From contig OW804094.1 in NCBI GenBank assembly GCA_942159475.1, positions 21,061,067 through 21,125,066 of the forward strand: a DNA stretch of 64,000 nt, in the 5' to 3' direction. Origin of the DNA: Sthenelais limicola (taxonomy: Eukaryota; Annelida; Polychaeta; Phyllodocida; Sigalionidae). Below the pieces are notes generated by a model that saw nothing but the letters and a program-made list of their open reading frames with translations, was not told the origin of the DNA and searched no databases. This document shows positions 13,091-60,635 of this stretch, piece after piece. Each line of letters opens with the position of its first letter. Position 1 is the first letter of the stretch. Both the position numbers and the translations under genes were made by a program.

Positions 13091-13360
13091 TTTAACAGAG
13101 TTCCGTGTTATAGAGATTTAACAGGGAATGCAGCTTTAACAGAGTCCTGTGTTATAGTGATTTAGCAGGCAATGCACCTTTAACAGAGTCCTGTGTTATA
13201 GAGATTTAGTAGGGAATGCATCTTTAACAGAGTCCTGTGTTATAGAGATTTAGCAGGGAATGCAGCTTTAACAGAGTCCTGTGTTATAGAGATTTAGCAG
13301 TGAATGCAGCTTTAACAAAGGCCTGTGTTATAGACATTTAGCAGGGAATGCATCTTTAAG
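13091..13360 (+). repeat. 44-bp tandem repeat, about six copies
   Basis: The unit begins TTTAACAGAGTCCTGTGTTA and ends GCAGGGAATGCAGC; starts at 13091 and 13135 give the 44-base period. Units differ by 1-4 substitutions. Confidence 0.9.
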
Positions 13361-14870: not shown

Positions 14871-16571
14871 GCCTGTCTAATAGGGACCTTTATTTAACCC
14901 TTCTGTCTAATAGGGACCTTTATTTAACCCTTCTGTCTAATAGGGACCTTTATTTACCCCTCCTGTCTAATAGGGACCTTTATTTACCCCTCCTGTCTAA
15001 TAGGGACCTTTATTTAACTCTCCTGTCTAATAGGGACCTTTATTTTACCCTCCTGTCTAATAGGGACCTTTATTTACCCCTCCTGTCTAATAGGGACCTT
15101 TATTTACCCCCTCCTGTCTAATAGGGACCTTTATTTACCCCTCCTGTCTAATAGGGACCTTTATTTACCCCTCCTGTCTAATAGGGACCTTTATTTAACC
15201 CTTCTGTCTAATAGGGACCTTTATTTACCCCTCCTGTCTTATAGGGACCTTTATTTAACCCTCCTGTCTAATAGGGACCTTTATTTAACCCTCCTGTCTA
15301 ATAGGGACCTTTATTTAACCCTCCTGTCTAATAGGGACCTTTATTTACCCCTCCTGTCTAATAGGGACCTTTATTTAACCCTCCTGTCTAATAGGTACCT
15401 TTATTTAACCCTCCTGTCTAATAGGGACCTTTATTTAACCCTCCTCTTTCATAGGGACGTTTATTAACCCTCTTGTCTAACGGGGACCTTTATTTACCCC
15501 TCCTGTCTAATAGGGACCTTTATTTACCCCTCCTGTCAAATAGGGACCTTTATTTACCCCTCCTGTTTAATATGGACCTTTATTTACCCCTCCTGTCTAA
15601 TATGGACCTTTATTTACCCCTCATGTCAAATAGGGACCTTTATTTACCCCTCCTGTCTAATAGGGACCTTTATTTACCCCTCCTGTCTAATAGGGACCTT
15701 TATTTAACCTTCCTGTCTAATAGGGACCTTTATTTAACCCTCCTGTCTTATAGGGACCTTTATTTAACCCTCCTGTCTAACAGGGACCTTTATTTACCCT
15801 CCTGTCAAATAGGGACCTTTATTTACCCTCCTGTCTAATAGGGACCTTTATTTACCCTCCTGTCTAATATGGACCTTTATTTACCCTCCTGTCTAATATG
15901 GACCTTTATTTACCCCTCATGTCAAATAGGGACCTTTATTTACCCCTCCTGTCAAATAGGTACCTTTATTTACCCCCTCCTGTCTAATAGGGACCTTTAT
16001 TTAACCCTCCTGTCTAATAGGGACCTTTATTTACCCTCCTGTCTAATAGGGACCTTTATTTAACCCTCCAGTTTAATAGAGACCTTTATTCAACCCTCCT
16101 GTCTAATAGGGACCTTTATTTAACCCTCCTGTCTAATAGGGACCTTTATTTACCCTCCTGTCTAATAGGGACCTTTATTTAACCCTCCAGTTTAATAGAG
16201 ACCTTTATTCAACCCTCCTGTCTAATAGGGACCTTATTTAACCCTCCAGTTTAATAGAGACCTTTATGTAACCCTTCTGTCTAATAGGGACCTTTATTTA
16301 ACCCTCCTGTCTAAAAGGGGCCTTTATTTAACCCTCCTGTCTAATAGGGACCTTTATTTACCCCTCCTGTCTAATAGGGACCTTTATTTACCCTCCTGTC
16401 TAATAGGGACCTTTATTTAACTCTCTTGTTCAATAGGGACCTTTATTTAACCCTCTTGTTCAATAGGGACCTTTATTTAACTCTCTTGTTCAATAGGGAC
16501 CTTTATTTAACTCTCTTGTTCAATAGGGACCTTTATTTAACTCTCTTGTTCAATAGGGACCTTTATTTAAG
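14871..16571 (+). repeat. 30-bp tandem array, about 56 copies
   Basis: The unit contains TCTAATAGGGACCTTTATTT then AACCCTCCTG. The first dozens of units are exactly 30 bases; later ones lose one base (TTACCCTCC). A distinct variant (CTCTTGTTCAATAGGGACC) fills the last five units, a sign of local homogenisation. The period is a multiple of three, so open frames of 10-residue repeats appear; they are not genes. Confidence 0.97.
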
Positions 16572-19261: not shown

Positions 19262-19995
19262 CTGCACACACACTGCCACTACCACAGCCTGCGGGTGGTG
19301 GGTATATGGGCTGCTATAGCATATATACATGTAATATTACATGTATATTAGACTGCACACACACCACCACTACCACAGCCTACACCCGCGGGGTATATGG
19401 ACTGCTATAGCATATATACATGTAATATTACATGTATATTATACTGTACACACACCACCACTACCACAGCCTACACCCGCGGGGTATATGGGCTGCTATA
19501 GCATATATACATGTAATATTACATGTATATTATACTGTACACACACCACCAATACCACAGCCTACACCCGCGGGGTATATGGGCTGCTATAGCATATATA
19601 CATGTAATATTACATGTATATTATACTGTACACACACCACCACTACCACAGCCTACACCCGCGGGGTATATGGGCTGCTATAGCATATATACATGTAATA
19701 TTACATGTATATTATACTGCACACACTCTGTGACTACCACAGCCTACACCCGCGGGGTATATGGGCTGCTATAGCTTATATACATGTAATATTACATGTA
19801 TATTATACTGCACACACTCTGTGACTACCACAGCCTACACCCGCGGGGTATATGGGCTGCTATAGCTTATATACATGTAATATTACATGTATATTATACT
19901 GCACACACTCTGTGACTACCACAGCCTACACCCGCGGGGTATATGGGCTGCTATATCATATATACATGTAACATTACATGTATATTATACTGTAC
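19262..19995 (+). repeat. 91-bp tandem array with two palindromes per unit, about eight copies
   Basis: Each unit has CACCACTACCACAGCCTACA, a GC palindrome CCCGCGGG, and a perfect 26-bp AT palindrome whose half-site is ATATACATGTAAT. Units 1-5 begin CACACACCACCA; units 6-8 carry the variant CACACTCTGTGA. The 91-base period makes the frame drift, so open frames of 83 residues recur every unit; they are not genes. Confidence 0.95.
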
Positions 19996-20550
19996 AATCT
20001 CTGCACACAAACCCGGTGCTCTTTGCATTGCAAGTACCAAATAGCTTGGAAATAATGTTCCCAGAATTTGTTTTTGTTTCTTGCAATACCTGTTGCAGAT
20101 GTCTAGAACAGAGTCTCGCTTTATTTTTACAATTTTTCTTTTCACATCATCTGGCAATCTTTTGGCAGTATGCCATCAACAGTATCGTTAGTATGCTTAG
20201 CTACTCTGAAAGCCTTGTTTTTTCAATGAATCATTGATCTCAAATCTCTGATGTGTAGAATATTGCCATATTTAACCATATAGCTCAGCAGTGTGTATAG
20301 TTGATCTTGAATTTTAGAAAACTCCTTAGTAGTGAGTAGTTAAATAACTATTTCTCTAGCTTGATTCACCATGAAACCATAACCCCACCCACCCTATCCT
20401 CTTCCCCTAAATAGTTTATTTGAAAAACTCTCATTTATTACCTAATGCCTTATATTACGATGGGGAGTGTGTGTATGCCTGGTCATTCTCAGACATGTTC
20501 CCCATACAGCCAGTCGCCAGTGTTACATATAGTCAACCATGTATTCAACG
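19996..20550. other. Unassigned sequence
   Basis: No gene or repeat recognised. Confidence 0.3.
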
Positions 20551-25302: not shown

Positions 25303-25451
25303 GCATCTCGTAGGTGGTCTTGCATAAAGGATCACATTGACCCTTGACGATTCTTTTCGATATAACACACTCACCTATCGGCTTGTGTGCCATGCGAAAA
25401 GAAACGTCTTGGGTCAATGTGATCCTTTATGCAAGACCACCCACGAGATGC
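25303..25451. repeat. Foldback element, about 57-bp arms
   Basis: GCATCTCGTAGGTGGTCTTG plus CATAAAGGATCACATTGACC at the left are mirrored by GGGTCAATGTGATCC plus TTTATGCAAGACCACCCACG at the right. The arms continue less perfectly through TTCTTTTCG/CGAAAAGAA. The loop is about 35 bases. Confidence 0.85.
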
Positions 25452-27385
25452 TTATGATGAGACCCATGTTCATGCAGTAGTAACAATGTACTGCATGATA
25501 AGAACCATGTTCATGCAGTAGTAACAATGTACCTTATGATGAGACCCACGTTCATGCAGTAGTAACAATGTACCTTATGATGAGACCCATGTTCATGCAG
25601 TAGTAACAATGTACTGCATGATGAGACCCATGTTCATGCAGTAGTACCAATGTACCTTATGATCAGACCCATGTTCATGCAGTAATTATAATGTACCATA
25701 TGATGAGACCCACGTTCATGCAGTAGTAACAATGTACCTTATGATGAGACCCATGTTCATGCAGTAGTAACAATGTACCATATGATGAGACCCATGTTCA
25801 TGCAGTAGTAACAATGTACCTTATGATGAGACCCATGTTCATGCAGTAGTAACAATGTACCACATGATGAGACCCACGTTCATGCAGTAGTAACAATGTA
25901 CCTTATGATGAGACCCACGTTCATGCAGTAGTAACAATGTACCTTATGATGAGACCCATGTTCATGCATTAGTAACAATGTACCTTATGATGAGACCCAT
26001 GTTCATGCAGTAGTAACAATGTACCATATGATGAGACCCATGTTCATGCATTAGTAACAATGTAACATGATCAGACCCACGTTCATGCAGTAGTAACAAT
26101 GTACCTTATGATGAGACCCATGTTCATGCAGTAGTAACAATGTACCTTATGATGAGACCCATGTTCATGCAGTAGTAACAATGTATCATATGATGAGACC
26201 CATGTTCATGCATTAGTAACAATGTACCTTATGATGAGACCCATGTTCATGCAGTAGTAACAATGTACCTTATGATGAGACCCATGTTCATGCAGTAGTA
26301 ACAAAGTACCTTATGATCAGACCCATGTTCATGCAGTAGTAACAATGTACCATATGATGAGACCCATGTTCATGCAGTAGTTATAATGTACCATATGATG
26401 AGACCCACGTTCATGCAGTAGTAACAATGTACCATATGATGAGACCCATGTTCATGCAGTAGTAACAATGTACCACATGATCAGACCTACGATCATAGGG
26501 GACTCTAGAGATGATGCATATAATAAAACTGGACATAGCCGTTGATGCATCACATTACAGGTTTTCTTTAATCCCCCATTCTCCTCATGGTTAATGAGGA
26601 GAATGGGGAAATACATTTTCAATGTCCCTGTGTTAGCCACAGGCGATTTAATGATCAGCTGGTAGGCAAGTACGTGACAATGTACCTTATGATGAGACCC
26701 ATGTTCATGCATTAGTAACAATGTACCTTATGATGAGACCCATGTTCATGCAATAGTAACAATGTACCATGTGATGAGACCCATGTTCATGCAGTAGTAA
26801 CAATGTACCTTATGATGAGACCCATGTTCATGCAGTAGTGACAATGTACCTTATGATGAGACCCATGTTCATGCAGTAGTGACAATGTACCTTATGATGA
26901 GACCCATGTTCATGCAGTAGTAACAATGTACCACATGATGAGACCCATGTTCATGCATTAGTAACAATGTACCTTATGATGAGACCCATGTTCATGCAGT
27001 AGTAACAATGTACCTTATGATGAGACCCATGTTCATGCAGTAGTAACAATGTACCTTATGATGAGACCCATGTTCATGCAGTAGTAACAATGTACCTTAT
27101 GATGAGACCCATGGTCATGCAGTAGTAACAATGTACCATATGATGAGACCCATGTTCATGCAGTAGTAACAATGTACCATATGATGAGACCCATGTTCAT
27201 GCAGTAGTAACAATGTACCATATGATGAGACCCACGTTCATGCAGTAGTAACAATGTACCATATGATGAGACCCATGTTCATGCAGTAGTAACAATGTAC
27301 CATATGATGAGACCCATGTTCATGCAGTAGTAACAATGTAACATGATCAGACCCACGTTCATGCAGTAGTAACAATGTACTGCAT

Positions 27386-30445: not shown

Positions 30446-30953
30446 GTATAGGGCGCATAAGTGTCATGGCCGCCACAAACAAATTAATAAAAATTAGTCG
30501 CGTACTTGGATGGATGTGTGGACCGGAAGTAAACAATCTCCATAGACTCACAGACTGTTGCGGCGATAAATAATCACTCTTTACATCGCCACATTAAAGG
30601 CTTAACGATTATGGTCGATATATAACCCATAAAACATGTCATGAGGGACATGGAAACAAACCTGCGACAGGAACTACAGACCAGACACAACAAAGAGACC
30701 AGAGGCCAAACAGGAGGTTCAAGAGATACCAACCGAATGAACGAGCGAGCGAGCGAGGGGTGAGGACGCACGGAGACCGATCGCTTCATTTTCGCCTAAA
30801 TTCGCTGGATATTTTGTTGATACAAACTAGAAAACTAGACTACTGGAAAGAACTCTGAGGCTAGCTCCAGGAGGGCGCTATGGTATGTAACAGATTGTAC
30901 ATATACTGCATATTTTGAGCGTTTTTGATACAAAAATTGCATACGAATTCGAT

Positions 30954-32867
30954 ATGGATCAGTATTTTGAAGCGCTGGTCCCCGACCGAGACAGCCGGAG
31001 AGCATTCACGGCGCCCACTAATCCCCGGAGATTAGACCAAGCTTGTTATTTTAGGGAAGAGCCTACTGAACACTTTGTAGAAAATGCGCTTGGACCTAGG
31101 GCCCTATTTGAACTGGTAAATGACGAATTCACCCCAGCAAATGTCAGAGGAGCTGTCAATAAATCATACGAACTATTAGAATCTCACAGACTAGTACTTG
31201 ACAATGTAATACAAAATGAAAGAGACTTTAGAACCGAATTATGCAAACTAAGGGAAGACGTGAACAAGCTCTCAATCCGAAATGAATTTCTTGAAGAAAG
31301 AGTAACTGAATTAGACGTGGACAGACGTAGACAGAATTTAGTACTCAGTGGAGTATCCTTTGACAAAAACGAAAATCTAGTGAATAAATGCGGCTATATT
31401 TTCAACCAAATCGATAACCAAATCACTAGCAATAATGTCATCTCAGCTAGACGTCTCACATCCTTCGTTAATGGTACAAAACAAGTCCTAGTAAAACTAG
31501 ACTCAATTGAGGCAAGAAATTACGTGTACCAACATAGGAAAGACTTGAGGGCAACAAATACATGCTACAATGTATATATCAACCCGGATCTCCCGGAAGA
31601 TGTCGTTGAAAAAAAGGCAGACTTGAGAACTCTACAGAAACATCTCAACTCAATGAGAGGAGTCAAGGTCGGTAAGATATGGAAGGATACAATACAGATA
31701 GATGGAATCACCTATCGACATTGTGACCTAGACAACCTTAAAGAGGGTTACCGTCTTGAAGATGCCAAATCAGTGCCTGTTGAAAATCGCATATATTTTC
31801 AATCGCAGCATAGCCCACTTAGTAATTTCTATCCAGCGAAAATTGAAATAAGAGGGCTCAAATTTACTAGCGCTGAACAAGCGTACCAATACGCGCGCGC
31901 TAACACGATTGGAGATGCAGACAGAGCCTCCCAGATTTACGCGTGTACTACGGCAAAGAAAGCAAAAGCTATTGGCACGGATATCAACTCGACCCCAGGT
32001 TGGAATGACGAGAAAATCAATGTCATGCATGCAATTTTGGACCAGAAGTTCAAACAGAACCCAGTATTGCTGGATTTCTTGGTTGCTACCAGAGAAAAAA
32101 CCCTTTGCGAGGCGACTACGGACCAATTCTGGGCAGCTGGTTGTAAACTCGGCTCTGATGAAATGGAAGAAGGCGATCACGAGGGCTTTAATGTGGTAGG
32201 GAAGATTCTGATGGAAATAAGGAAGCATCACCTAACGGGTACTACACAAATGGAAAGAGTAAGTGCTAATATGGATATCAACCAGGATCCTAAAAATGAT
32301 TCGATGAGAAGTCATTCCAGGAAAAGGATGGAATTTGATCAACGCCAACAACAGTGGTATGGTTATAGGGAGAGAGATACACGTGGACAGTATAGGCCAG
32401 ACCCAACCATGGGTGACGAAGTAAATAGAAACATAGCAGCAGAGGGCCCCACTCCAATGGAGGCTCAGGCAACCGGAATCACTGGACCGGAACAAGCCGC
32501 ACCGGTACAACCCGCCGCAGCTACACCTGCCCCTGCAACGATCGGCGGAGACAACACAACTGAGAACGGAGCTCTACCTGTAAACAGATTTGATCGCAGG
32601 GCTCAACTTCGCATGACAGCTGAGGAAAGACAGAGGGCACGATCGAGATCTAAGAGAAGACGTAGCGGTGCATCATACTCAGTAAGTAGTGCACCTAAGA
32701 GACAATCGAGACATGATAGTTATTATGCGGATGCAGTTAGATCTGACAATTCAATCTGGAGAGATAATATGACTCCACTATCAAAACAAGCGCATGGGGA
32801 TTACCCCCACCAAAGACGCTCACCACCGCAGCTATATTTAGACAGGACCCACACTAGATGCATTTGA
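30954..32867 (+). CDS. LINE A ORF1: coiled-coil/RNA-binding-like protein with C-terminal-half NADAR domain
   Basis: 637 residues from the ATG at 30954; the frame opens slightly earlier but only with non-ATG codons. Residues about 82-127 form a coiled coil (KLREDVNKLSIRNEFLEERV). Residues 125-232 resemble the RNA-binding and C-terminal domains of L1-type ORF1 proteins (RRRQNLVLSGV, then VLVKLDSIEARNYV). Residues 279-424 are a NADAR/YbiA-like domain: PLSNFYP, the conserved glutamate in SAEQAYQ (E308), W350, KFKQN at 365-369, the FWAAG block (W393) and FNVVGKILMEIR (N413). A long disordered tail ends in basic RS-like sequence (RARSRSKRRRS, about 562-572). Studied NADAR proteins hydrolyse ADP-ribose from guanine; here the substrate is unknown. 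Expected to be the nucleic-acid-binding partner of the ORF3 polymerase. Confidence 0.9.
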   Translation: MDQYFEALVPDRDSRRAFTAPTNPRRLDQACYFREEPTEHFVENALGPRALFELVNDEFTPANVRGAVNKSYELLESHRLVLDNVIQNERDFRTELCKLREDVNKLSIRNEFLEERVTELDVDRRRQNLVLSGVSFDKNENLVNKCGYIFNQIDNQITSNNVISARRLTSFVNGTKQVLVKLDSIEARNYVYQHRKDLRATNTCYNVYINPDLPEDVVEKKADLRTLQKHLNSMRGVKVGKIWKDTIQIDGITYRHCDLDNLKEGYRLEDAKSVPVENRIYFQSQHSPLSNFYPAKIEIRGLKFTSAEQAYQYARANTIGDADRASQIYACTTAKKAKAIGTDINSTPGWNDEKINVMHAILDQKFKQNPVLLDFLVATREKTLCEATTDQFWAAGCKLGSDEMEEGDHEGFNVVGKILMEIRKHHLTGTTQMERVSANMDINQDPKNDSMRSHSRKRMEFDQRQQQWYGYRERDTRGQYRPDPTMGDEVNRNIAAEGPTPMEAQATGITGPEQAAPVQPAAATPAPATIGGDNTTENGALPVNRFDRRAQLRMTAEERQRARSRSKRRRSGASYSVSSAPKRQSRHDSYYADAVRSDNSIWRDNMTPLSKQAHGDYPHQRRSPPQLYLDRTHTRCI

Positions 32868-32960
32868 AGCTAGCAGCTTAGGTATATATAGTCCTTAGAC
32901 ACACTACGCACATGAATACCAAGCATTATATTCTCTTACCATTTTTTTCCAGACGAGAAA

Positions 32961-33611
32961 ATGGACCGTTTACCGCTAACTGTAGTTGTATCTGACTCAA
33001 GGGGCAAATCATTGATTGACTACATTGAGACAAGACAAGAAATTGTCACGTATAGCTTCCCTGGAAGAGGAATAGTTGACCTCGCCTACAAAGCCAAAGG
33101 TATTATTGACGATCTGCGACCAGATAGCCTATTGCTGATAGGAGGTATATGCGATCTATGTAAGAAGGATCCGATCTCTAAATGGGTTGACTTATGCTTG
33201 AAAGAAGAGGGACCATTAGCACGACATATGGAGAAGCAATATGAATTAGCTTTAGAAGTTCTGAAACAGGAGCAGACCTATTGTAATATTGCACTTGGAG
33301 GCCTAATCGGCTGCGAACTAGCAAGAGCACATCAGATGAATATTTCACCTTATCAGGTCATGATTAATAACGTAATTTGGACAATAAATGAGAACATCAG
33401 GATGAGCAATGAGCGGAGAGGAATCACACATCCGTATTTAATTAGCAAGGTACACACTTTCCATAAAGGGTCGCCTATGCATTTACTTTGCAAAATTCCA
33501 GATGGAATACACCCAAATGAAATAGTGATTAAAGAATGGGCGAAGCAAATTGAAAAGTTTCATCGATCTCCAAAACGCATAACAAGATTCACTAGCCCGA
33601 AATACCTATAA
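32961..33611 (+). CDS. LINE A ORF2: small SGNH/GDSL-hydrolase-like protein
   Basis: 216 residues, starting 93 bases after the ORF1 stop. Block I is VVVSDSRG with the candidate nucleophile S13; block II is FPGRGI (G35-G37); block III is IGGICDL (61-65), where the usual Asn of GxND is Asp; block V is DGIHPN with D181 and H184. This spacing fits a minimal SGNH hydrolase. Esterase-like domains of this superfamily are known inside ORF1 of CR1-type LINEs; here the domain is a separate protein. The missing block III Asn could weaken catalysis. Substrate unknown. No signal peptide or membrane segment. Confidence 0.75.
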   Translation: MDRLPLTVVVSDSRGKSLIDYIETRQEIVTYSFPGRGIVDLAYKAKGIIDDLRPDSLLLIGGICDLCKKDPISKWVDLCLKEEGPLARHMEKQYELALEVLKQEQTYCNIALGGLIGCELARAHQMNISPYQVMINNVIWTINENIRMSNERRGITHPYLISKVHTFHKGSPMHLLCKIPDGIHPNEIVIKEWAKQIEKFHRSPKRITRFTSPKYL

Positions 33612-34167
33612 ATTATAAGTCAGGATATATGTACATATAGGAAAGCGCGCCTAAGAATTAGCATAGTTTTGTGCTCCGTGAATCGGTCACAATGTTAGTA
33701 ACTTAACTGTCGACGAAGGGAATTATAATTATATCGCGTGACAATTTACTAGTAATTTAGGAAATCATGAGCATGATAATTATTAAATACTTTGTACATT
33801 TATTTTAGACGATTTGAATTGTGCTGAATATCGCTGTATATAGAGAAAATCTAGTGTTAAGAGATACTACCTAATGATAGACCTAATGAGATGATAGGCT
33901 AAGTAATAAAAGTCCACGGACGAGGAGTATTGATAAGCCGGCTAACAACTAACACATGACACTAACATGCTAAGAGAGTAAAGGTCTACTTTCATGATAC
34001 AGTACACCGTAGAAACGGTCGCTGACACTGATGCATTAATATGAATACGCTTGGACTCAAATAATCTGATACAGACTTTAGACGATGTGAGATGCTCCGT
34101 AAAAACGGTCTCTTGCAACTATAATGAAATATATGTATATTAACCCATAAAACTAACACATCCTAAT
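33612..34167 (+). promoter_or_regulatory. LINE A ORF2-ORF3 spacer with repeated small hairpins
   Basis: Three related motifs occur: GTGCTCCGTGAATCGGTCAC at 33671, ACACCGTAGAAACGGTCGCT at 34004 and GCTCCGTAAAAACGGTCTCT at 34094. The second and third form CCGT/ACGG stems with four-base loops. The last copy is extended to GAGATGC...AACGGTCTC (34089-34112), a form that is also present twice in the LINE B spacer. No long frame. Possibly a translation or packaging signal. Confidence 0.5.
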
Positions 34168-37026
34168 ATGCCCACCCTCGACCCCCCATTAGAATCATGG
34201 AACGAATTAATGAAAATCAAAGGATTCAAAATAATTCACCTAAATACGCGATCGCTCATACAGAAAGTTGACCAGATTAAATTAGACATACTCGATAAAG
34301 AGCCAGACATTTTATGCCTAAGTGAATCGTGGTTAAAAGCAACGATCGATAGTAAATTAATATCACATAACGGATATGTATGCTTGCGCGCGGACCGAGC
34401 TACGGGTAGGACTGGTGGCGGCATCTGTAGTTACATTAGAAATGATCTTATAGTTAGAGAAATAGACCTTGAAGATGTAGTAAATAATGATATTGAAGCA
34501 CAAGCATTCATAACTGGAAAACAGAACGTAAGGAAGAAATTCATAGTCTGTGTATATCGCCCCCCAAGCTCTAATATGGCGAAGTTTGTGGAAGGTTTAA
34601 AAACTATTATAGAAAAATTAGACGAAAATGACCAAGAAATACATGATATAATCTACTGCGGTGACTTTAACGTTGATTTATTAGATAAAAAGGACCCCAA
34701 GTTTAAATTGTTAGACAGCTTTTGCCGAGACCAAGGATTATCTATCAACATGAACAGTATCACCCGATTCGGAATGACAAAAAACAGTATATTAGATTTC
34801 TACCTGACAAAGATCCGTAAGACATTTAGCTCTGGCACAGTCAATTATAATATTTCAGATCATCAGGGGATTTACTTAAATATTAAGCAAGAAAGAAGAA
34901 TTTATAAAAAAATTAGTTTTAGAGGACGGAAGATGGCTAACTACAATAAGGACGAACTAGATATTAAATTGGACGCTATAAATTGGGAAGAATTCTACGC
35001 ATTAAATGATGTGAATGAACAGTGGGACTATGTATATAACCATGTAAAACGTGTAATTGATAACCTAGCGCCTATGAAGTTATTTAAAAGACGAGCGGAA
35101 CGCCCTAAATGGTACACCAATGAACTGGCTCAACTAGCACAGGACCGTGATAAAGCATTTAAAATTGCCAATAGATCAGGTAATATAGAAGACTCTCGCT
35201 CTGCCAAGCAGAAGAGGAATGTGTTCAATCTAGAACTGAAACGAGCAAAACAAAACTATTATACGAATCTACTTAACATAAATAAGAATGATGGCAAGAA
35301 ATTTTGGCGGACAATATCAGAATTACAAGGGAATAGAAAGCCAGAGGTCAGTCAATTAATAGATGATAATGAAAATACTATACATGGTAAAGAGCTATCT
35401 GAATATATTAACAAATTCTTCTGCGAAATTGGAGATAGAATTCAGGAGCAAATCCCGCAGTCAGCCCCGATCTATCATCAGGAACTAATAACTGCACAAC
35501 TTGAGATGAGAAAATTCACCACGGAGGAGGTTGAAGAGGAAATTAAACTTATAAATATTAATAAACCTTCTGGCTGCAACGAAATTAATAGTAGAATATA
35601 TAAAGATATTTTCAGTAGAATTACACCACAATTAACATTTATGTTCAACAGCTCCATCAGTACAGGTACCTTCCCTGTTGTATGGAAAAATAGCACTTGT
35701 AAAATAATACCCAAGAAAGATTTACCAAGAACCGCGGACGATACTAGACCCATAACACTGATACACATCGCAGGAAAGCTACTAGAGAAATTAATTTCAA
35801 AGATATTATACTCTCATTTAAGCACAAATAACATCATATCTAACAATCAGTTTGGATTTATGCCAGGTAGAGGTACTGCAGATGCACTGGCGAAATTTAT
35901 GAGTTATATGGATGACACCCTGAATAGGAAAGAGTTTGGTATTGCGACCTTCGTTGACTTTAGTAAGGCGTTTAATAGTGTTAATTTAGAGATCTTAGTA
36001 AAAAAGTTGGAATTCAATGGTATAAAAGGAGATTTATTAAGATGGATCAAGTCATATGTAATGGGTAGGAGCCAGAGAGTCAGGATCGGAACCGATGAGT
36101 CATCCAGCCGTGGTTTGAACTGCGGGGTACCGCAGGGCTCGGTACTAGGGCCGATACTATTTTTGATATATACGAATGACCTGAAATCTCTGAATCTAAA
36201 TTGTAAGTATATACTATATGCGGACGATACCGTGCTATATAGTTCTGGTAAAGACTTAGTAGATATCTGTAGGAAAATGGAAGCTGACATTGGCATATTC
36301 CATGAATGGGCGGTAAGAAATAGAATATTAATGAATATGAAGAAAACAAAACATATGGTTATCAGTAGAAAGAAGAAAATAAACTCACCAGCAATGACAA
36401 TTAACAACCAAATAATAGAGAGAGCGACCAACTATGAATACTTAGGAGTAAAGATTGATGAGCGTATGACATTATTACCACAGTTGGACACCGTAATTAG
36501 GAATCTAAATTTCCGAATATACCAGCTAGGATGTATGAGAAAATTCCTCACGGCACATGCCGCTATGACACTTGTAAAGACTTTTATTCTACCGATCATA
36601 GATTACTCCCTACCGTTCCTAACTTATGTAGGACAGAATAAATTAAACAAACTACAACGAATGCAGAACAAAGCTATACGAATTGCAACGAGGAGTGGAT
36701 TCCTAATAGGAAGATTAGAGTTACATAAAAATTATAAGATTATGACAATAAAGAACCGGCAAAAGTACTTACTTACAATATTAGGAAAAAAAAGTACAAA
36801 GGATAACAATAACTCCGTTGTAAACAGATACCCGACGCGAAGACAGGACGCAGACACTATACAAATGCGAAGACCAATGGCTGAATGTGACCGTAAAACC
36901 TTTTCATACCAAATGGCCATAGGATGGAATGAGCTGACTCCAGAGATTAGGAACCTTGGCATGGACGACCTAAAGAAAAGAATGAAATTCTTAATTTTAA
37001 CGAATCAAAATGACAACGACCTATGA
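34168..37026 (+). CDS. LINE A ORF3: AP-type endonuclease and reverse transcriptase
   Basis: 952 residues. Endonuclease/exonuclease/phosphatase domain at about 18-236: N26 in HLNTRS, E53 in SESW, GGGI at 83-86, YRPPS, D166 and N168 in GDFNVD, and S230-D231-H232. Reverse transcriptase at about 505-770: motif A FVDFSKAF (D597), QFGFMPGRGT, motif B GVPQGSVLGP (653-662), motif C YADD (684-687). A long C-terminal region follows, with the YLGVKID and KLQRMQNKAIRIATR segments usual in this LINE group; no RNase H or zinc knuckle seen. It nicks target DNA and copies element RNA by target-primed reverse transcription. All catalytic residues are intact. The ATG at 34168 is the first in frame. Confidence 0.95.
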   Translation: MPTLDPPLESWNELMKIKGFKIIHLNTRSLIQKVDQIKLDILDKEPDILCLSESWLKATIDSKLISHNGYVCLRADRATGRTGGGICSYIRNDLIVREIDLEDVVNNDIEAQAFITGKQNVRKKFIVCVYRPPSSNMAKFVEGLKTIIEKLDENDQEIHDIIYCGDFNVDLLDKKDPKFKLLDSFCRDQGLSINMNSITRFGMTKNSILDFYLTKIRKTFSSGTVNYNISDHQGIYLNIKQERRIYKKISFRGRKMANYNKDELDIKLDAINWEEFYALNDVNEQWDYVYNHVKRVIDNLAPMKLFKRRAERPKWYTNELAQLAQDRDKAFKIANRSGNIEDSRSAKQKRNVFNLELKRAKQNYYTNLLNINKNDGKKFWRTISELQGNRKPEVSQLIDDNENTIHGKELSEYINKFFCEIGDRIQEQIPQSAPIYHQELITAQLEMRKFTTEEVEEEIKLININKPSGCNEINSRIYKDIFSRITPQLTFMFNSSISTGTFPVVWKNSTCKIIPKKDLPRTADDTRPITLIHIAGKLLEKLISKILYSHLSTNNIISNNQFGFMPGRGTADALAKFMSYMDDTLNRKEFGIATFVDFSKAFNSVNLEILVKKLEFNGIKGDLLRWIKSYVMGRSQRVRIGTDESSSRGLNCGVPQGSVLGPILFLIYTNDLKSLNLNCKYILYADDTVLYSSGKDLVDICRKMEADIGIFHEWAVRNRILMNMKKTKHMVISRKKKINSPAMTINNQIIERATNYEYLGVKIDERMTLLPQLDTVIRNLNFRIYQLGCMRKFLTAHAAMTLVKTFILPIIDYSLPFLTYVGQNKLNKLQRMQNKAIRIATRSGFLIGRLELHKNYKIMTIKNRQKYLLTILGKKSTKDNNNSVVNRYPTRRQDADTIQMRRPMAECDRKTFSYQMAIGWNELTPEIRNLGMDDLKKRMKFLILTNQNDNDL

Positions 37027-37248
37027 AATGGAAATGTAACACTTAACTAGTAGCCCTCCTGGTAGCGTCGCGCCTCCTGCGAGCCCACAACCCCTCTAAA
37101 TGCCACTAACCCATAAGAGATTTTACTAATATTTGCATGTCTACCCACTAAGTAAGAACTTTAAGGCAGCATGGGTGGAACATCGCCCCCGGTGAGCCTG
37201 TGGATGTATTTGTACTGCCAATAAAAATTATAAAAAAAACAAAAAAAC

Positions 37249-37280: not shown

Positions 37281-38415
37281 AGCACCAACTAACAGCCCCA
37301 CAGAATAGTGTCCTGAACAAGGGGTTGAACTTCATCCCCACCCCTCGTTCCACCAACACCATACACAGTCTCAAGGACACTTTAATGTTCAACCAACGAG
37401 TTCGTCTACAACACTATTGGCAAAATTATCCCAACCCTACAAAAAACACAAATCCTTTTCCACCTGAACCCAAAGGATGGGTCCCCCCCCCCCAAGGGAC
37501 TGGACCCAGACGTAGATGCCCTGACCGCTTACACCGCCCAAAAAATGAGAACCCCCCCTCGCCCACCTATAATGAAACCCAACCTCACCCCAGATGAACT
37601 TCAAGCTCTAAAAGAACTGAGCCAAAATGATGAAATCGTAATCAAACCCGCCGACAAGGGCGGGGCAATTGTATTTCAAGACACAAAAGACTACATTTCT
37701 GAAGCAGAGAGACAGCTCAACAACCCTTCCCATTACAAAATGGTCCCCATTAGGACCACCACTGACAACTATGAATGCATCAAAAGACGCCTCATAGAAC
37801 TATCAGCAAATGGAGCCTTACCATCACATGCCCCCACCACGCTACTGCCAAAATACATAAAAACTGCTCCTTTCTACACTCTCCCAAAAATTCACAAAGC
37901 AGGCAACCCTGGCAGACTCATTGTTGCTGGCATCGACTGTCCCACAGATCGCATCTCAGCAGCCGTAGATACTATCATCTGCCCCCTGGTAAAGAAAATG
38001 CCCTCCTACATCAATGACACAAGGGACTTCATAAATTGTCTCCAGAATCACAGGAATGGCTACCTGGATGATGACGAGATCATGATTACCATAGACGTTT
38101 CAGCACTTTATACCCCAATCCCCCATGAAGAGGGTATTGCTGCAGTTGAAGAGATCCTAATGTCCAGGCCCTTCAACCTAGTAGATCCACATGTGGTAAC
38201 TGAAATGATCAGAATGGTACTAACTACAAACACCATGACCTTCAATAACAAATGCTACCTACAGGTCCAGGGTACGGCTATGGATACCAAGATGGCACCA
38301 ACTATGCCAACTTGTTTATGCACAAAATAGAAACAGACATGCTGAGCAGAACATCAATTACTCCAGTACTATGGAAGCGTTACATAGACGACGTCTTCAC
38401 CATTTTCAAGTGTAC
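37250..38415 (+). pseudogene. Penelope-like reverse transcriptase, broken and truncated
   Basis: Starts mid-protein with NLSQHQLTAPQNSVLNKGLN and FIPTPR, typical of the N-terminal part of Penelope-like polymerases. A C-tract near 37479-37491 shifts the frame; the next frame carries IKPADKGGAIV, FYTLPKIHKAGNPGRLIVAG, MITIDVSALYTPIPHEEGI (motif A) and LQVQGTAMDTKMAP (motif B). A second shift near 38300 moves to the frame with NYANLFMHKIE and WKRYIDDVFTIF (motif C YIDD at 38381-38392). Similarity ends soon after; no GIY-YIG endonuclease follows. Two frameshifts and both ends missing mean it is dead. Confidence 0.9.
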
Positions 38416-44477: not shown

Positions 44478-45600
44478 ATTTTTTTTTTTTAAAACATTTT
44501 ATTTCGATAAACAATTCCACACAGGTGGTACGTTTCAAGTTATCGAGTGAAAAGAAATGGTACAATTTAAGAATCTACAATATAATATTTATCAATATCC
44601 GTAGTCTGAAGACTTCAGTGATTCCATATATCATCTATATCATTATATAACATTGAAAACCTTTATAGATATACAAAAAATTATTTTACAATAGTCATTT
44701 CTAGGTAACATACTACCAACTACATTTATAGAGGCTAAAAAAACTCGACATTTCAACATAATATGATATGACGACGAGGGGCAATACACATTTTTTGGAT
44801 TTTTTTTGCCAACTAAAAACAAATACATAAGTCTATCCGCATTTATAAAACTACGAGGTTTACGTTCATTTAACCAGTTGGTTACATTTAACTCAGGTCA
44901 TACCATTTTACCGTTATTCCGATATAGATAAACGGGCCGTATTTCACGTTATATAGAAACAAAATTGTTTCACTTCAAAGCATGTTCTTAAGATAAATCT
45001 TAATTTCCTGCCACGGTTTCACTCTGATAATCGCAGGAATGTTGTTCCACATCATGGGGCCCTGACATTGTGGGGAAGAGAGATATTTTGCGGAAGAACA
45101 AACCGGTTGGATGATGTTGGGACCTTCAGCCTGCCTGGTATTGCGAGGCATGATTTGTATATATATTGGATCTAATGATCTTCTAGCCATTATGCTTAAA
45201 ATGGCGATTTTACCTCTAGCTATTATTTCATTGATGTTGTACATGGTTTTGATCTCTTGTGTGGATAGATCATGATTAAACGATATCAACCGGATCGATC
45301 GGTTTATCGTACTTTGCACTTTCTTAATAATGTTCGCATTTGCCATATTGTACATGAACAAACCATAATCCGCAAGCGGTAATATATGTGCTTTCACAAT
45401 CATCTTTGCTACATTGTCATCAATAAAGAATCTTAACCTGGCAAATTTGTTTACCTTCATCTGTACAGTGCACTTCATTTTGAAGAAATGCTCATTAAAG
45501 CTTAGGTTAGAATCGATACAGAAACCAAGATACCTACAATGCTTCGCTTTTGTAATGGCATGGCCATTTATATATACATCAGCAAGGTTACATTATACAT
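44478..45600 (-). mobile_element. 5'-truncated LINE, minus strand
   Basis: Ends with AATAAA and an A-tail on the minus strand (T run at 44479-44490). It holds only the C-terminal part of a polymerase frame. It lacks the endonuclease and catalytic reverse-transcriptase motifs, as expected from abortive target-primed insertion. Confidence 0.75.
44975..45597 (-). pseudogene. C-terminal fragment of a LINE reverse transcriptase
   Basis: The open frame begins upstream of its first ATG (at 45478) with DVYINGHAITKAKHCRYLGF then CIDSNLSFNEHF, which matches the post-catalytic YLG.ID region of LINE polymerases. ILPLADYGLFMY and VQSTINRSIRLI correspond to LPIIDYSLPFL and LQRMQNKAIRI of LINE A. The frame is intact to its stop at 44975, so the insertion is fairly young, but it cannot make an active enzyme. 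Confidence 0.75.
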
Positions 45601-53268: not shown

Positions 53269-56184
53269 TTACCCTGGGTCATATTCTCTTTTTAAATATC
53301 TCTTAAATTCCTTAATATCACTTAAATTCTGTTGTTTTGGGGCCAAACTGTTCCAGAGTGTAGGTATGGTATATATGAAAGACTTCTTCACTCTTTCTGA
53401 AGTTGGATTAACCACCTTCATGTTTTTCCCACCTACAAGGCTTCTAAGGTTTATCTCTCTATTATCTAAGTAATTCTTGTTTTGCGCTAATTTATATCCC
53501 ATTTCAAGTAAATGTGATTTTCTGCGCACTTCTAACTTCTGTAGGCCTAGTTCAGCATGAGCTGCATCCGTATTTGTTCTTTTAATCAGATTTTTTACTA
53601 TTCTCACTGCTGAATTTTGCAGAACTTGTAGTTTTGCTAGTCCAGATTGGTTTCCTCCACTATAAAGTAAATCACCAAAATCTATAATAGGACGTATAGC
53701 CACCTTATATATTGTCAATAGGGTATTATTACCAGCTGATTGTCTCAGTTGCGCCAGTTTATGAATCTTATTTCTAACAGAGCATATTCGCAATGAGAGG
53801 TGTTGTTTAAACGTCAGCTTGTCGTCAATGGTTACCCCTAGGTATTTATAAGATTTCGTTCTCTCTATTTCGGCCTTCCCTATGTGAAATCTTGTTTCGT
53901 TATCATCAGGTACTTGCCTTTTCCTACTGATCTCCATTATTTTACTTTTCTTGATATTCAGAGATATTTTATTTTCTCTACACCACAGATTTACTCTGTT
54001 CAGGTCAAATTTCATTTCCTCTTCTATTACTTGTTTCTCCTTGTTTGTGCCATAAATTACAGTGTCATCAGCAAATAAAATTATATTTGAATGCTTAATC
54101 CACTGATTTAGGTCATTAATGTACACCTGGAACAGTAATGGCCCCAAAGCTGTCCCTTGAGGGACCCCGCATGTTACCTCTTTTCTATCTGACGTCGTTT
54201 TATTTACTACTACTGTTTGTTCCCTACCGCTCAGATAATTTGTAAACCATCCCAGTGCCTTTTTGTCTACCCCTATCATTTCAAGTTTTTGTAACAGCCT
54301 TTCATGGTCAACCGTATCGAAGGCCTTTTTTAGGTCTAGATACGCCAAAACTGAAACATCTTTCTTATTAAGATTTTGGTACACATCGGAGAATAACTTA
54401 AAGTGTGCATCATTCAAGGATATCCCTTGTCTAAACCCGTACTGGTGCTCATATAAAAGATTCTCTTCCTCCAGATAATTATAAAATTGCCTTTGGATAC
54501 ATTTTTCAAGAATTTTTGCTGGAAAAGTAATTACCGAAATAGGTCTAAAGTTCCCTGGCTCTGTCTTGCTTCCATCTTTATGGAGTGGCGTTATTTGTGC
54601 ACTCTTGAACGCTATGGGTACCTGACTCGTATCTATTGACAGATTAAATAGGTATAATAATTGCATGCTCAGTTTTATCAAGATCGGTTTCAGTACTTTA
54701 GTGGGCATATACGGTATCCCTGATGCTTTGTATTTGCTCGTTCTCCTTACAAACTGTAATATTTCTTTCAATTCTATTGGCACTAGGGAAAATTTATTAC
54801 TGTTCCCTCCATCAATAACACTAGTTTCGTCTATTAAACGATTTTTTGATTCTGACGTAAGATTTCTTATTTCTTCATCCTTTTCCTCTTCTTTTAGAGG
54901 TTTTATTTCTTGCGCCAACTTTTGTCCTATATTTGCAAAATAATCATTCATAATATTTGGAACTTCACTCTCTTCAACTAGTTTTCCATTTTGTAATTTA
55001 ATCTGAACCGGCTTGTTCACTTTCTCTTTGTCAGGTGATATAATAGGATTTATTGTTTCCCAACATTTCTTGGGATCATTCCTATTTTCTTGGATTTGTA
55101 GCCTGAGATAATTATTTTTCATTTTCACTAGTTCAGAATTTACTTTATTTCTACATTTCCTTGCTTCCTCCCAATCATTTAAATTTTGACTCCTTTTTGC
55201 CTTAACAAAAAGTTTATCTCTCAGCTTAGCCATCCTGACCAATTCTTTTGTGAACCACGGCGGTTTAGATTTTACATTTCTCAACTCTTTCACTGGGCTC
55301 ATTCTGTCTAGAAAGAATGATATTTTATTATACATTAGTTCCCAACACTTATTTACATCCCTTGTTTGATAGTATTCCGTCCAGTCTTCATTTTCTAGAA
55401 TTTCATTCAATATATTTCCATCATAATGACTCATGTCCCTAGCTTTAAATGTAGTATGTTGGTATCTCGTTCTAGGTTTCTTTATTATTACATATACAGG
55501 TAAGTGGTCACTCAGGTTATTTTCAATGACTCCTGACCTATCAATCTTATTACTATTACTATATACCATATCTATAAGCCTAGCTGACTTATGTGTAATT
55601 CTTGTTTTCTTCTCTATTAGTTGAGTTAGATTGTATTTCATGAAGACACAATTCAGTTCACCTATTTGGGATGATTTACTTGCTTCTGACATTTCGGTGT
55701 AGTCTATATTAAAGTCACCGAATACTATTATCTCTTGATATTTTTTTATGTTCTCTAATACCAGGCTCAAATGTTCTCTGAACTTTTCTATTGACCCATT
55801 TGGGGGTCTATATAGATTTATAGCTATTAAATTTTTACTTTGTCCTTTCTTGATACCTAGGATTTGTATTTCTATGTCATTTGAGGATTTATTATAATCT
55901 TGGTAAGTTTGTTCATCGACATTTATCCCCTCTTCTATATACATAGCTATACCCCCTCCTTTCCTGCTGCCTATTCTATCAGCTCTTATGTTTTAATACC
56001 CTTCAATATTTATTTGTGATTCTGAAATATTCCTACTCAACCATGTTTCTTGGCATGCTAGAATGCTGGGCTTATATTCCTGTACTAGTGTCGAGATTTC
56101 AAGCAATTTCGGTTTTAAACTTCTAACATTCCATGAAATAATGGAAAGACCTTTGAACTTTTTAATTTCGGTCATTTTGCACAT
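53269..56184 (-). pseudogene. LINE B ORF3: endonuclease and reverse transcriptase with one premature stop
   Basis: A frame of about 970 codons beginning at the ATG at 56184 and interrupted by TAA at 55993-55995, about 63 codons in. Before the stop: SIISWNVRSL and CQETWL of the endonuclease. After it, in the same frame: RKGGGIAMYI, YRPPNG, FGDFNI, NNLSDH, then reverse-transcriptase motifs YLDLKKAFDTVDH (A), GVPQGTALGPLLF (B) and FADDTVIY (C), and the C-terminal KLQVLQNSAVRIVKNL. All other catalytic residues are present and there is no frameshift, so loss of function is recent. Product of the intact state: target-primed reverse transcriptase. Confidence 0.92.
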
Positions 56185-57643: not shown

Positions 57644-58345
57644 CTACTGGGCTTTGTTAAAGGCAATGGCCAGCTGCTTTGCATACTCCCACTTCATTTC
57701 TCTTGATAAGTGACAGCCGTCACCTGCAAGCTTGTGGTAAAAGGATGAATATTTGGTTGGTCCGTTTTTGCGTTTTTTCTTTCCGGCTTGGCATCTATGG
57801 ATCATTTGGGAAACAAATGGTGTTGGGTTTCCCTGTTCTGCATTCATTTGCCTCGCCATATTACTGAAGATGACTACTCGCTCATTTATTTGCCTTTGTA
57901 CTTCCTGATAATGATCTTTCTTCGGGTAAAGTATCCCTTTTAAGGCGGCCAGGTGAGAGTTATATATTCTGACGTTGATGCCTATCATTGTGGCTATTGA
58001 AACTTTCGGTATGTAACCCTGAACCGGCGCTATTTGTTTAAGTGTTGATATTGCTTGGTTGAGGGTAGTTCTGATCGATTCTTCAAATAGGACGTTCGTA
58101 TCATGCCTCAGTTTTATCTGTTCACCAAAATCACTTTTATCTCTAAAAGTTATATTGCACAACCCAGCTGCTATTACTATATGCTTGGGTCTTCTTAATG
58201 CAACCATCGATCGTGCTTCCTCCGTCAACCTCTCTATGGTTCCCCCTCTTACTGTAATGACTCTTAACGCGACTCCTGAGAGTGTTATTTTAAGCTTGTT
58301 CTCTATGCCATCTCCCCTGGAGTCCATCAGTATCAGTAAATTCAT
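57644..58345 (-). CDS. LINE B ORF2: small SGNH/GDSL-hydrolase-like protein
   Basis: 233 residues; the ATG lies only six bases beyond the ORF1 stop (TAA TGTAAC ATG), which suggests termination-reinitiation. Block I is LILMDSRGDG with S9; block II VRGGT; block III AAGLCNIT with N64; block V AGDGCHLS with D209 and H212. Unlike the LINE A protein it keeps Asn in block III, so the catalytic set looks complete. A basic segment (KKKRKNGPTK, 189-198) could bind nucleic acid or direct it to the nucleus. Substrate unknown. Confidence 0.78.
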   Translation of the reverse strand: MNLLILMDSRGDGIENKLKITLSGVALRVITVRGGTIERLTEEARSMVALRRPKHIVIAAGLCNITFRDKSDFGEQIKLRHDTNVLFEESIRTTLNQAISTLKQIAPVQGYIPKVSIATMIGINVRIYNSHLAALKGILYPKKDHYQEVQRQINERVVIFSNMARQMNAEQGNPTPFVSQMIHRCQAGKKKRKNGPTKYSSFYHKLAGDGCHLSREMKWEYAKQLAIAFNKAQ

Positions 58346-58351
58346 GTTACA

Positions 58352-60169
58352 TTACATTACCTTTGTTTCAGCTTCAATGATAAGTCTCTCTCTAATTCTT
58401 TCTAAAATCTTTCCGAAAATGTTTTTCCCAGTGAGGCTACTCGCGTCTACGGTTACTCGGGCGCCATTTTGAATGAGCACTTCCGGGTGTTTGGTTCCGG
58501 TAGCCCACTTATGGGAGGATGTCATTTCGTATAATTTTTTCCCTTTTGTGTCGAGCAATTTTCTTTTAAGATCATTTGACTGGTCAAATTTTTGGTAAAC
58601 AATGTTTTCCAGCATATTTTCTTCGATCTCTTTCCACTCGGGAGACGTTCTAAACTTCCCGCCCTCTCCCTTAGCGACCGCTGGGTTTGGTTCACGCGCT
58701 ATGCTCTCGGCCAATCGAACACGGCCTGCCTTCGCCGCTTTGTTTGCTTGGAAACAATGCTCGGCCGAGTCATAGGTTCGGCCGTCAAATTCAAATTTTA
58801 CTTTATAAAAGTTGCTCATGAAGCTGTGTTCCCCTTTGAAGCCAATGCCATTTTCTCCCACTTGAACATGAAATATATTCTCGGGTTTGCAACCCTCTGG
58901 AAGCTTGTGTAAGTCATAGACACTGAAGGTTTCTCTTCCTATGACTATGTGGTTGGCCTCCAGCCTCGCCGCAATTTTATTTAACTCGAGTAGTCGTAAT
59001 GAGTTTTCGAGCAAATTCAACTGGTAGCCATTTGTGTGCCTGCTAAATTTATTTAGCCAGACCCTTCCATACATTCGTTGCTCCCTCATTTTCCTACTTG
59101 CTTTAACAATTTTAATTTTCATTTCTTCGGTGGCTACAATAATATAGACTGCCCTCCTCCGACCTATCGTGGCCTTCCCTATTCTGTAGGCGGTCTGTAC
59201 ATCTACTTTTTGTGACTCGTGAATCGCTAATTTTATGATTTTCAGAATTTTTTGGTGTACTTCTTCCCTTTCCCCATTTATTCTGACTATTTTGCTTAGC
59301 TCTTCTTGGGTTTCAATTCCTTGGTTTTCCCAATCCTCCTCAATCCCTTCGATGATTAAATAATGTGGGTCCTTTCTAGTTTTCGGCATATTCTCACCGT
59401 TTACTTGGGCTTGCCTGTCGGCTAATCCGTCATTCTCTTTTCTCTTTTCTTTTCCTTTTTCAACTTTTGGTTCAGCTTTTTCCCTTTTCCATTCGTTGTT
59501 TTTGCCCACCGTTACTTCGATTTCTCTGACTCGCCTCTCTAGCTCGTTTAAATTTATCATTTGATTTTCCATTTTCTTGATTCGTTTATGAAAGCCCTGG
59601 ATCGTGTTGGAGTTCTCCCAGGCGTATTCACCAAAGTCCTGCTCCATACACTCTATGTCAGTTTTTATTTTCGTTATAAATTGCCCAAAGCTGCTTTCTA
59701 CGAGCACTAAATCCTTTTTGACTTCCTCTAGCTCTGTTATTTCAATTTTATTTTGTGAAATTGAACCCACCTCATTCACTGGAGCATTCTTTCTCCTGGT
59801 CATCGACTTTCTTGTCGCCCATGACTTTGCCTCTGAATCCACTGTGCGCGGAGTCTCAGCGCGTGAATAATCTCCTTTTGAATTATCAAATAACACTTTC
59901 TTTACACTTCCATACTTCAGCTGAAGCATTTCCTCTTCGTTAAGGTTTTCTTCTTCCACTTTTACCTCATCATTCTCTGAGTGAGTGGTCTTTTTATCCG
60001 GGTATAATTCGTTATCCGTACTCATCTTTCCGGATTTCTCGTCATCGGATACCCAATCTCCATGGCCGCCATCCTTCTTAACGGTTTTCTTTCGCGATGA
60101 AAGTGTTTTTCTTGATGAACTGCCCAATATGGCATGTTTCATTCGAGAAAAAAGCCCTGGCGATTCCAT
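58352..60169 (-). CDS. LINE B ORF1: coiled-coil/RNA-binding-like protein with C-terminal NADAR domain
   Basis: 605 residues from the ATG at 60169. N-terminal 130 residues basic and Ser-rich. Coiled coil about 145-225 (RIKKMENQMINLNELERRVR), then a Lys/Glu stretch. Residues 268-395 resemble L1 ORF1 RNA-binding and C-terminal domains (HYLIIEGIEEDW, TAYRIGKATIGRRRAVYIIV, MREQRMYGRVWLNKF). Residues 441-598 are NADAR: FMSNFYKVKFEFDGRTY, SAEHCFQANKA (E470), W512, YQKFDQSND, KWATGT and GKNIFGKILERIRE. The linker YDLHKLPEGCKPE before NADAR matches that of LINE A. The likely role is RNA chaperone/packaging plus ADP-ribose removal. Frame fully open, though its ORF3 is broken. Confidence 0.9.
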   Translation of the reverse strand: MESPGLFSRMKHAILGSSSRKTLSSRKKTVKKDGGHGDWVSDDEKSGKMSTDNELYPDKKTTHSENDEVKVEEENLNEEEMLQLKYGSVKKVLFDNSKGDYSRAETPRTVDSEAKSWATRKSMTRRKNAPVNEVGSISQNKIEITELEEVKKDLVLVESSFGQFITKIKTDIECMEQDFGEYAWENSNTIQGFHKRIKKMENQMINLNELERRVREIEVTVGKNNEWKREKAEPKVEKGKEKRKENDGLADRQAQVNGENMPKTRKDPHYLIIEGIEEDWENQGIETQEELSKIVRINGEREEVHQKILKIIKLAIHESQKVDVQTAYRIGKATIGRRRAVYIIVATEEMKIKIVKASRKMREQRMYGRVWLNKFSRHTNGYQLNLLENSLRLLELNKIAARLEANHIVIGRETFSVYDLHKLPEGCKPENIFHVQVGENGIGFKGEHSFMSNFYKVKFEFDGRTYDSAEHCFQANKAAKAGRVRLAESIAREPNPAVAKGEGGKFRTSPEWKEIEENMLENIVYQKFDQSNDLKRKLLDTKGKKLYEMTSSHKWATGTKHPEVLIQNGARVTVDASSLTGKNIFGKILERIRERLIIEAETKVM

Positions 60170-60234
60170 GTCTTTGTCTTCTACTTTCGTACTATTTTTT
60201 TCTTCTGTCTGGCGGTGTTTTCTCTACTTTTGGT

Positions 60235-60635
60235 TGTGATCCGTTTCAGGAAAATTGTCATGATTCGCAAAAAATGGATTTTGAGATATCACCATATTTG
60301 AAAAGAGGGAATCAAGGGGATTCCAATGATAGTAAACACTAGGACACTCAATAAGTGTTATCATATTTTAAGTTTGATATTTTTATTTTTGAAACAAAAA
60401 GTTTGCAATGTTTCTAGATGAAGTAAAGTAACTAAATATACTCCATATGAAGGCCTTTAAAACGCAGGGATATATTTAATACAATATCCTGAAATTTGTT
60501 ACATGGTTTCATATGACTATAAGTAATAAACTGTTTAAAGATCAGAACATTTCAATAAAGAGATCTTGTGGAAAAAACACTTTAAAAAATATCAATTTTA
60601 CGACTTATGAATCATTTTCCTTGAACAAATCACAG
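60235..60635 (-). mobile_element. M2 element at the LINE B 5' border
   Basis: Full length; left TGTGATCCGTTTCAGG, right CCTTGAACAAATCACAG. Confidence 0.8.

Follow-up and report, generated by a model that had tools for sequence, protein, structure and literature searches.

NADAR domains in the ORF1 proteins of LINE retrotransposons from the annelid Sthenelais limicola: candidate erasers of ADP-ribosylation

Why would a retrotransposon carry a NADAR domain, a domain known for the removal of ADP-ribose? The question is raised by a stretch of 64,000 nucleotides from Sthenelais limicola (contig OW804094.1, positions 21,061,067 to 21,125,066, forward strand), which we call the window and from whose first letter all positions are counted. 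It contains a long interspersed nuclear element (LINE), element 1, whose first open reading frame (ORF), ORF1, includes such a domain. The original prediction for this locus was of a NADAR domain fused to an L1-type ORF1 protein (ORF1p) in an intact LINE, where it would serve as the element's own eraser of ADP-ribosylation by host PARP-like enzymes, or in integration. Our analysis supports the fusion, extends it to many other copies, and suggests a different source for the modification.

A NADAR domain within ORF1 of an intact LINE

Element 1 is a full-length non-long terminal repeat (non-LTR) retrotransposon at 30747..37247 (+), with its 5ʹ edge at 30743-30754 and an A-rich 3ʹ tail that ends at 37247. 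These edges are the points at which blastn alignments to other copies end, and the flanking DNA differs from copy to copy. No clear target-site duplication was found at the two copies examined. ORF1, an APE-type endonuclease and a reverse transcriptase (RT) lie in one element, and there are multiple copies with common ends; element 1 is an autonomous LINE.

ORF1 (30954..32867, +) encodes 637 amino acids. A coiled-coil helix (residues 61-125; 31134..31328, +), taken from the secondary structure of an AlphaFold2 model, is followed by an L1-ORF1p-like RNA recognition motif (RRM) and C-terminal domain (CTD) (residues 127-271; 31332..31766, +), the NADAR domain (residues 278-428, or 284-424 in Pfam; 31785..32237, +) and a tail of low confidence in the model. 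The presence of coiled coil, RRM and CTD makes this a type II (L1-like) ORF1p. A search of ORF1 against the NADAR profile gave a match that passes the curated Pfam cut-off, with an E value of 1e-28, and the predicted fold is YbiA-like. This confirms the predicted fusion of NADAR and an L1-type ORF1p within an intact LINE.

Copies and relatives

The window includes a second, distantly related element with the same order of three ORFs. Element 2, which covers at least 53269-60236 (-), has its ORF1 at 58352..60236 (-), with the first in-frame ATG at 60169 and a NADAR domain (Pfam E value 1.3e-24) at about 58831-58382. The element's 5ʹ edge, 60236, is common to three other copies at 98-99%. The SGNH-like middle ORF (57644..58345, -) has its ATG 6 bases past the ORF1 stop. 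ORF2 (53269..56169, -) encodes an endonuclease and an RT; its open frame spans 55992-53269, and the endonuclease N-terminus (56169-55996) is severed by a single in-frame stop at 55995-55993. Identity between the two ORF1 proteins is highest in NADAR (34%), ahead of RRM-CTD (22%) and the coiled coil (17%).

In the 1.13-Gb assembly, made up of 161 contigs, at least 70 places match the ORF1 of element 1 and at least 72 that of element 2, with no place in both lists; at least four elements are counted twice in these numbers, their match being split in two. The matches are spread over nine contigs. For element 1, 31 of the 70 listed matches are stop-free from residue 8 or earlier to residue 597 or later; for element 2, 13 of 72 are stop-free from residue 16 or earlier to residue 613 or later. 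Further matches retain a long open frame whose tail is divergent. Identities range from 100% down to about 36%, and hence there are many families, some of them young. The middle ORF is matched, whole or in pieces, at 28 of 30 element 1 loci (some of which are halves of one element), with no match at L017 or L022. ORF2 matches are found in all six downstream stretches examined, fragmented in five; only that of L034 is one open frame. Chance resemblance, an assembly chimera, or a host gene adjoining a LINE has next to no chance of explaining the fusion, being refuted by the strength of the profile match, the single frame, the similar layout of two distant elements, and the nine contigs.

In a wider protein set, ORF1 has six relatives at an E value of 1e-3 among 6392 candidates. 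Five of these (P0002-P0005 and P0007) are ORF1-like proteins with a NADAR domain; P0006, the remaining one, is fused to a PF01467 domain. A search of viral contigs with P0001 gave two pattern matches and no relative. By tblastn, the NADAR part of ORF1p matches 471 phage records, including 223 for Staphylococcus, 77 for Streptomyces and 54 for Listeria.

One case, L005 with L032 (G000:C2:128445100-128454977), looks mosaic: protein identity to element 1 is 82% for ORF1 and 85% for the middle ORF, but from window position 33998 onward DNA identity is 94.6-95.7%, the pattern that a swap of ORF1 and the middle ORF between families would leave.

Active site residues

Loss of all active-site residues would have argued against the original prediction, but most of them are kept. 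E308, R315, W350, E386, D390 and W393 of element 1 correspond to E43, K50, W89, E125, D130 and W133 of the P. nicotianae NADAR; E308, W350 and E386 are kept, and the Lys at K50 is Arg. E308 and E386 are the catalytic Glu residues, at E43 and E125, of the YbiA subfamily. We aligned 33 LINE-type NADARs: two from the window, 20 stretches taken by hand from 142 rows for spread rather than at random, six of the 30 loci, and five proteins (P0002-P0005 and P0007, with P0006, 8bau and YbiA excluded). They do not represent 33 independent cases, since some are near-identical. Position E43 is Glu and W89 is Trp in all 33, E125 is Glu in 32, and W133 is Trp in 31 and Phe in two. K50 is Arg in 22 (including element 1), Lys in ten (including element 2) and His in one; D130 is Asp in 22, Ser in nine and Asn in two; R93 is Lys in 21, Glu in nine, Arg in two and Ala in one. 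All seven non-LINE NADARs (four from phage, P0006, 8bau and YbiA) match the P. nicotianae protein at E43, K50, W89, E125, D130 and W133. In a NADAR tree, lineage A, which includes element 1, is one clade of 19 sequences (ultrafast bootstrap 93), and lineage B, which includes element 2, is one clade of nine (100). The smallest clade uniting the two, with support of 55, also includes P0002-P0004 and five phage or cellular NADARs.

Could the domain be a non-catalytic reader of ADP-ribose, or of ADP-ribosylated nucleic acid or protein such as PARP-marked nicks, that targets or holds the ribonucleoprotein (RNP)? The changes of K50 to Arg (22 of 33) and D130 to Ser (nine of 33) are consistent with this, as both residues touch the ADP-ribose pyrophosphate in 8bau. 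We nonetheless consider a reader quite unlikely. The distal-ribose Glu residues are kept, and a pure reader would not need E125. Furthermore, in the E. coli C7 NADAR, whose catalytic residues E88, K95 and D171 are equivalent to E43, K50 and E125, the K95R mutant retains hydrolysis in vitro and loses cell rescue (PMC11543638). Since K95R hydrolyses in vitro yet fails in cells, the NADAR of lineage A is probably active but altered. In lineage B, to judge from its residues, the pyrophosphate end of the pocket is altered.

Constraint on the domain

We applied a Nei-Gojobori script to ten hand-picked pairs of lineage A ORF1s. For NADAR, the eight pairs drawn from W1, L005, L006, L010 and L012 have a proportion of nonsynonymous differences (pN) of 0.06-0.15, compared with 0.21 for L023-L030 and 0.26 for W1-L023. 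In the same eight pairs, pN is 0.04-0.18 in RRM-CTD, 0.09-0.24 in the coiled coil and 0.17-0.36 in the tail. Silent sites in NADAR are saturated in all ten (proportion of synonymous differences 0.80-0.99). Identity to element 1 is higher in NADAR than in RRM-CTD in five of seven comparisons; NADAR is the lower for the two nearest sequences, L005 (88% versus 93%) and L006 (80% versus 81%).

A useless captured domain would hardly stay so conserved. Conceivably, NADAR now has a purely structural or RNA-binding role, and its chemistry is irrelevant: some SGNH domains have lost catalysis, as in Oskar (PMC3905857), so enzyme folds can be reused. With E43 and W89 invariant, E125 nearly so, and a domain that is in most comparisons more conserved than the rest of ORF1p, we regard this as very improbable.

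The middle ORF and the class of the RT

The middle ORF of element 1 (32961..33611, +; 216 amino acids) has the block I Ser, block V Asp and His, and fold of an SGNH/GDSL hydrolase, with S13, D181 and H184 as the putative triad. At the block III position (GxND), element 1 has GGICD, ending in Asp, and element 2 has AGLCN, ending in Asn. No homologue was found in a 5.8-billion set at an E value of 1e-3 among 113 candidates. Its profile has two weak matches among PDB sequences, a ribosomal protein (E value 0.0049) and a GDSL-like lipase (0.15); the ZfL2-1 esterase is absent among the matches listed for the fold, an absence that carries no weight. By analogy with the proposal for the ZfL2-1 esterase, the middle ORF probably encodes a second enzyme, one that helps the RNP to deal with membranes or lipids. 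Inspection by eye of the gap between this ORF and ORF2 (33612-34167) shows three short inverted repeats, CCGT...CGG, and the gap has no conserved RNA fold (z 0.64).

ORF2 of element 1 (34168..37026, +; 952 amino acids) encodes the APE-type endonuclease and the RT (RVT_1, residues 514-763), with the motifs GVPQGSVLGP and YADD, which we take to be of Jockey-superfamily type. We built a FastTree phylogeny of 55 RT segments, from five window or locus segments and 54 proteins entered, of which L033, P0052, P0056 and P0058 were left out for insufficient length. The root was set on P0061, the sole RQGCPISP-type protein, a motif we assume to be L1/Tx1-like. The RTs of elements 1 and 2, L034 and L035 group with P0008 and P0009 (support 0.861), with the GVPQGS-type RTs. 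A phmmer search of PDB with the RT, to an E value of 10, listed R2 and group II RTs and not L1 ORF2p, whose presence in the PDB copy is unchecked. Membership of the Jockey superfamily is suggested by these sequences, as our own reading rather than a formal class, from a tree that has no named clade references.

A possible role in retrotransposition

What is the functional significance of a NADAR domain in ORF1p? Its presence in an intact LINE, a largely kept active site and strong constraint make an element-borne eraser the natural reading, and this part of the original prediction stands. Strong constraint in two deep lineages suggests that undoing some ADP-ribosylation, or a similar N-glycosyl mark, helps retrotransposition. 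More specifically, we tentatively propose, at a little under even chances, that these are autonomous LINEs with a catalytic NADAR in ORF1p that clears guanine ADP-ribose so that reverse transcription is not blocked. Catalysis, substrate, writer and anti-block role are what we infer. As for L1, ORF1p would trimerise via the coiled coil and package element RNA via RRM and CTD. Tethered in this way, NADAR would act in cis within the RNP, on element RNA, first-strand cDNA or single-stranded target, where it would cleave the N-glycosidic bond between ADP-ribose and guanine bases, or a closely related ADP-ribosyl adduct. Removal of the modification would unblock reverse transcription and protect template or cDNA. 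Hydrolysis of guanine ADP-ribose on DNA has been demonstrated for several kinds of NADAR (PMC11543638, PMC11125620), and NADARs are active on guanine ADP-ribose in RNA (PMC11833690).

We would expect the writer to be a guanine ADP-ribosyltransferase from the host or the environment. A PARP-like writer is doubtful: PARPs act in vitro on phosphorylated DNA or RNA ends (PMC11543638), and NADARs are inactive on phosphate-end ADP-ribose (PMC11833690). An enzyme like pierisin or CARP-1, which modifies the guanine base, is a better fit. ADP-ribosylation of guanine-N2 in DNA is reported from six edible clams, and CARP-1 was cloned from Meretrix lamarckii (PMC11209040); that NADARs erase CARP-1 marks is described as an unconfirmed assumption (PMC11543638). 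For the other suggestion, ADP-ribose chemistry in integration, we found no evidence.

Several observations weigh against a guanine eraser. In lineage A, the catalytic Lys is Arg in 18 of 19 sequences and His in L005; in lineage B, D130 is Ser in nine of nine and R93 is Glu in eight of nine; and E125 is Lys in L044. Hence, the pocket and substrate may differ from those of known NADARs. The ratio of nonsynonymous to synonymous substitution rates (dN/dS) was not computable for NADAR in any of the ten pairs, because its silent sites are too diverged to be corrected. Data from clams may not hold for this host. Guanine is not the sole possible substrate, since YbiA itself cleaves a riboflavin intermediate. 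Lastly, NADARs can work without a role in conflict, as does nematode SNA-3 in trans-splicing (PMC9303266).

SNA-3 points to an alternative, in which the domain is catalytic but serves to process or repair the element's transcript, or acts on small ADP-ribose compounds (for example host signals derived from NAD, or products that arise in RNA end healing or trans-splicing), rather than against a guanine block. SNA-3 has three NADAR domains and is required for SL1 trans-splicing, which mutation of key residues impairs (PMC9303266); processing of RNA intermediates has been suggested (PMC12477816); and the lineage B pocket deviates at D130 and R93. However, in the articles consulted, guanine ADP-ribose in DNA or RNA was a substrate for every NADAR tested on it (PMC11125620, PMC11833690), and a domain fused to an RNA-binding ORF1p is more likely to act on a macromolecule. 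We consider this alternative possible, if doubtful.

A bolder version of the guanine eraser, which we think unlikely, is that a deep Jockey-type LINE lineage carries NADAR in ORF1p and the SGNH ORF as an anti-restriction kit, with the eraser acting in cis. Guanine ADP-ribosylation of RNA or cDNA by the host would then be a real defence of animals against retrotransposons that has so far gone unnoticed, and the two NADAR lineages, one Arg/Asp and the other Lys/Ser, would be the outcome of an arms race over the modified substrate. What NADARs do outside DarT operons and across eukaryotes, including animals, has been called unclear (PMC11125620). NADAR-LINEs point to a testable system of nucleic acid ADP-ribosylation.

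Other features of the window

An open frame without a Pfam hit at 37386-38330 (+) starts 139 bases past the A-rich tail of element 1, and resembles a Penelope-type RT fragment. A fragment of an RT C-terminus lies at 44975-45592 (-), with 25.7% identity to ORF2 of element 2. A minisatellite at 49814-51551 (23 copies of a 75-bp unit) is open in two + frames (585 and 543 amino acids, with a 25-residue unit). Other tandem arrays are at 25451-27380 (41 bp), 14872-16570 (30 bp), 19262-19996 (91 bp) and 13090-13359 (44 bp).

Comparison with known systems

The original prediction knew of no LINE with this fusion, but one sentence of a published article states that ORF1 of several Crassostrea gigas Tx1 LINEs (Repbase) appears to hold a YbiA-family NADAR (PMC12477816). 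Among the matches listed in open-licence literature, there was no other account of NADAR in a LINE ORF1. NADAR-LINEs are well supported, more widespread than was predicted, and not wholly new. The oyster elements, compared by description, are reported as Tx1, which belongs to the L1 group, whereas those described here have a GVPQGSVLGP/YADD RT and a separate SGNH ORF. Ectocarpus Gypsy LTR elements have also captured NADAR, there in Pol rather than in an RNA-binding protein (PMC12477816).

Type II ORF1ps of human L1 and some CR1, L2 and R1 elements are alike in the order and fold of coiled coil, RRM and CTD, but are without NADAR; the word is absent from the main text of the survey (PMC4120745). 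Enzymatic domains in ORF1p are rare, and those with an esterase were called unique in 2013 (PMC3905857). SGNH hydrolases are likewise encoded by the esterase LINEs ZfL2-1, CR1 and RTEX (PMC3905857) and by GDSL ORFs of rotifer LTR and Athena elements (PMC5408684). In those cases the hydrolase is an ORF1p domain or ORF3, whereas here it has an ORF of its own, placed between ORF1 and ORF2, and accompanies NADAR.

DarT1-NADAR, P. nicotianae NADAR and YbiA share with the LINE domains the fold, E43, W89 and E125 (PMC11543638). In contrast to DarT1-NADAR and stand-alone NADARs, no partner toxin was seen here, and Arg replaces Lys in lineage A and Ser replaces D130 in lineage B. Certain RNA viruses have NADAR in their polyprotein. 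They are not retroelements, but they too are RNA-based, and their own NADAR is proposed to counter host ADP-ribosylation (PMC9503650).
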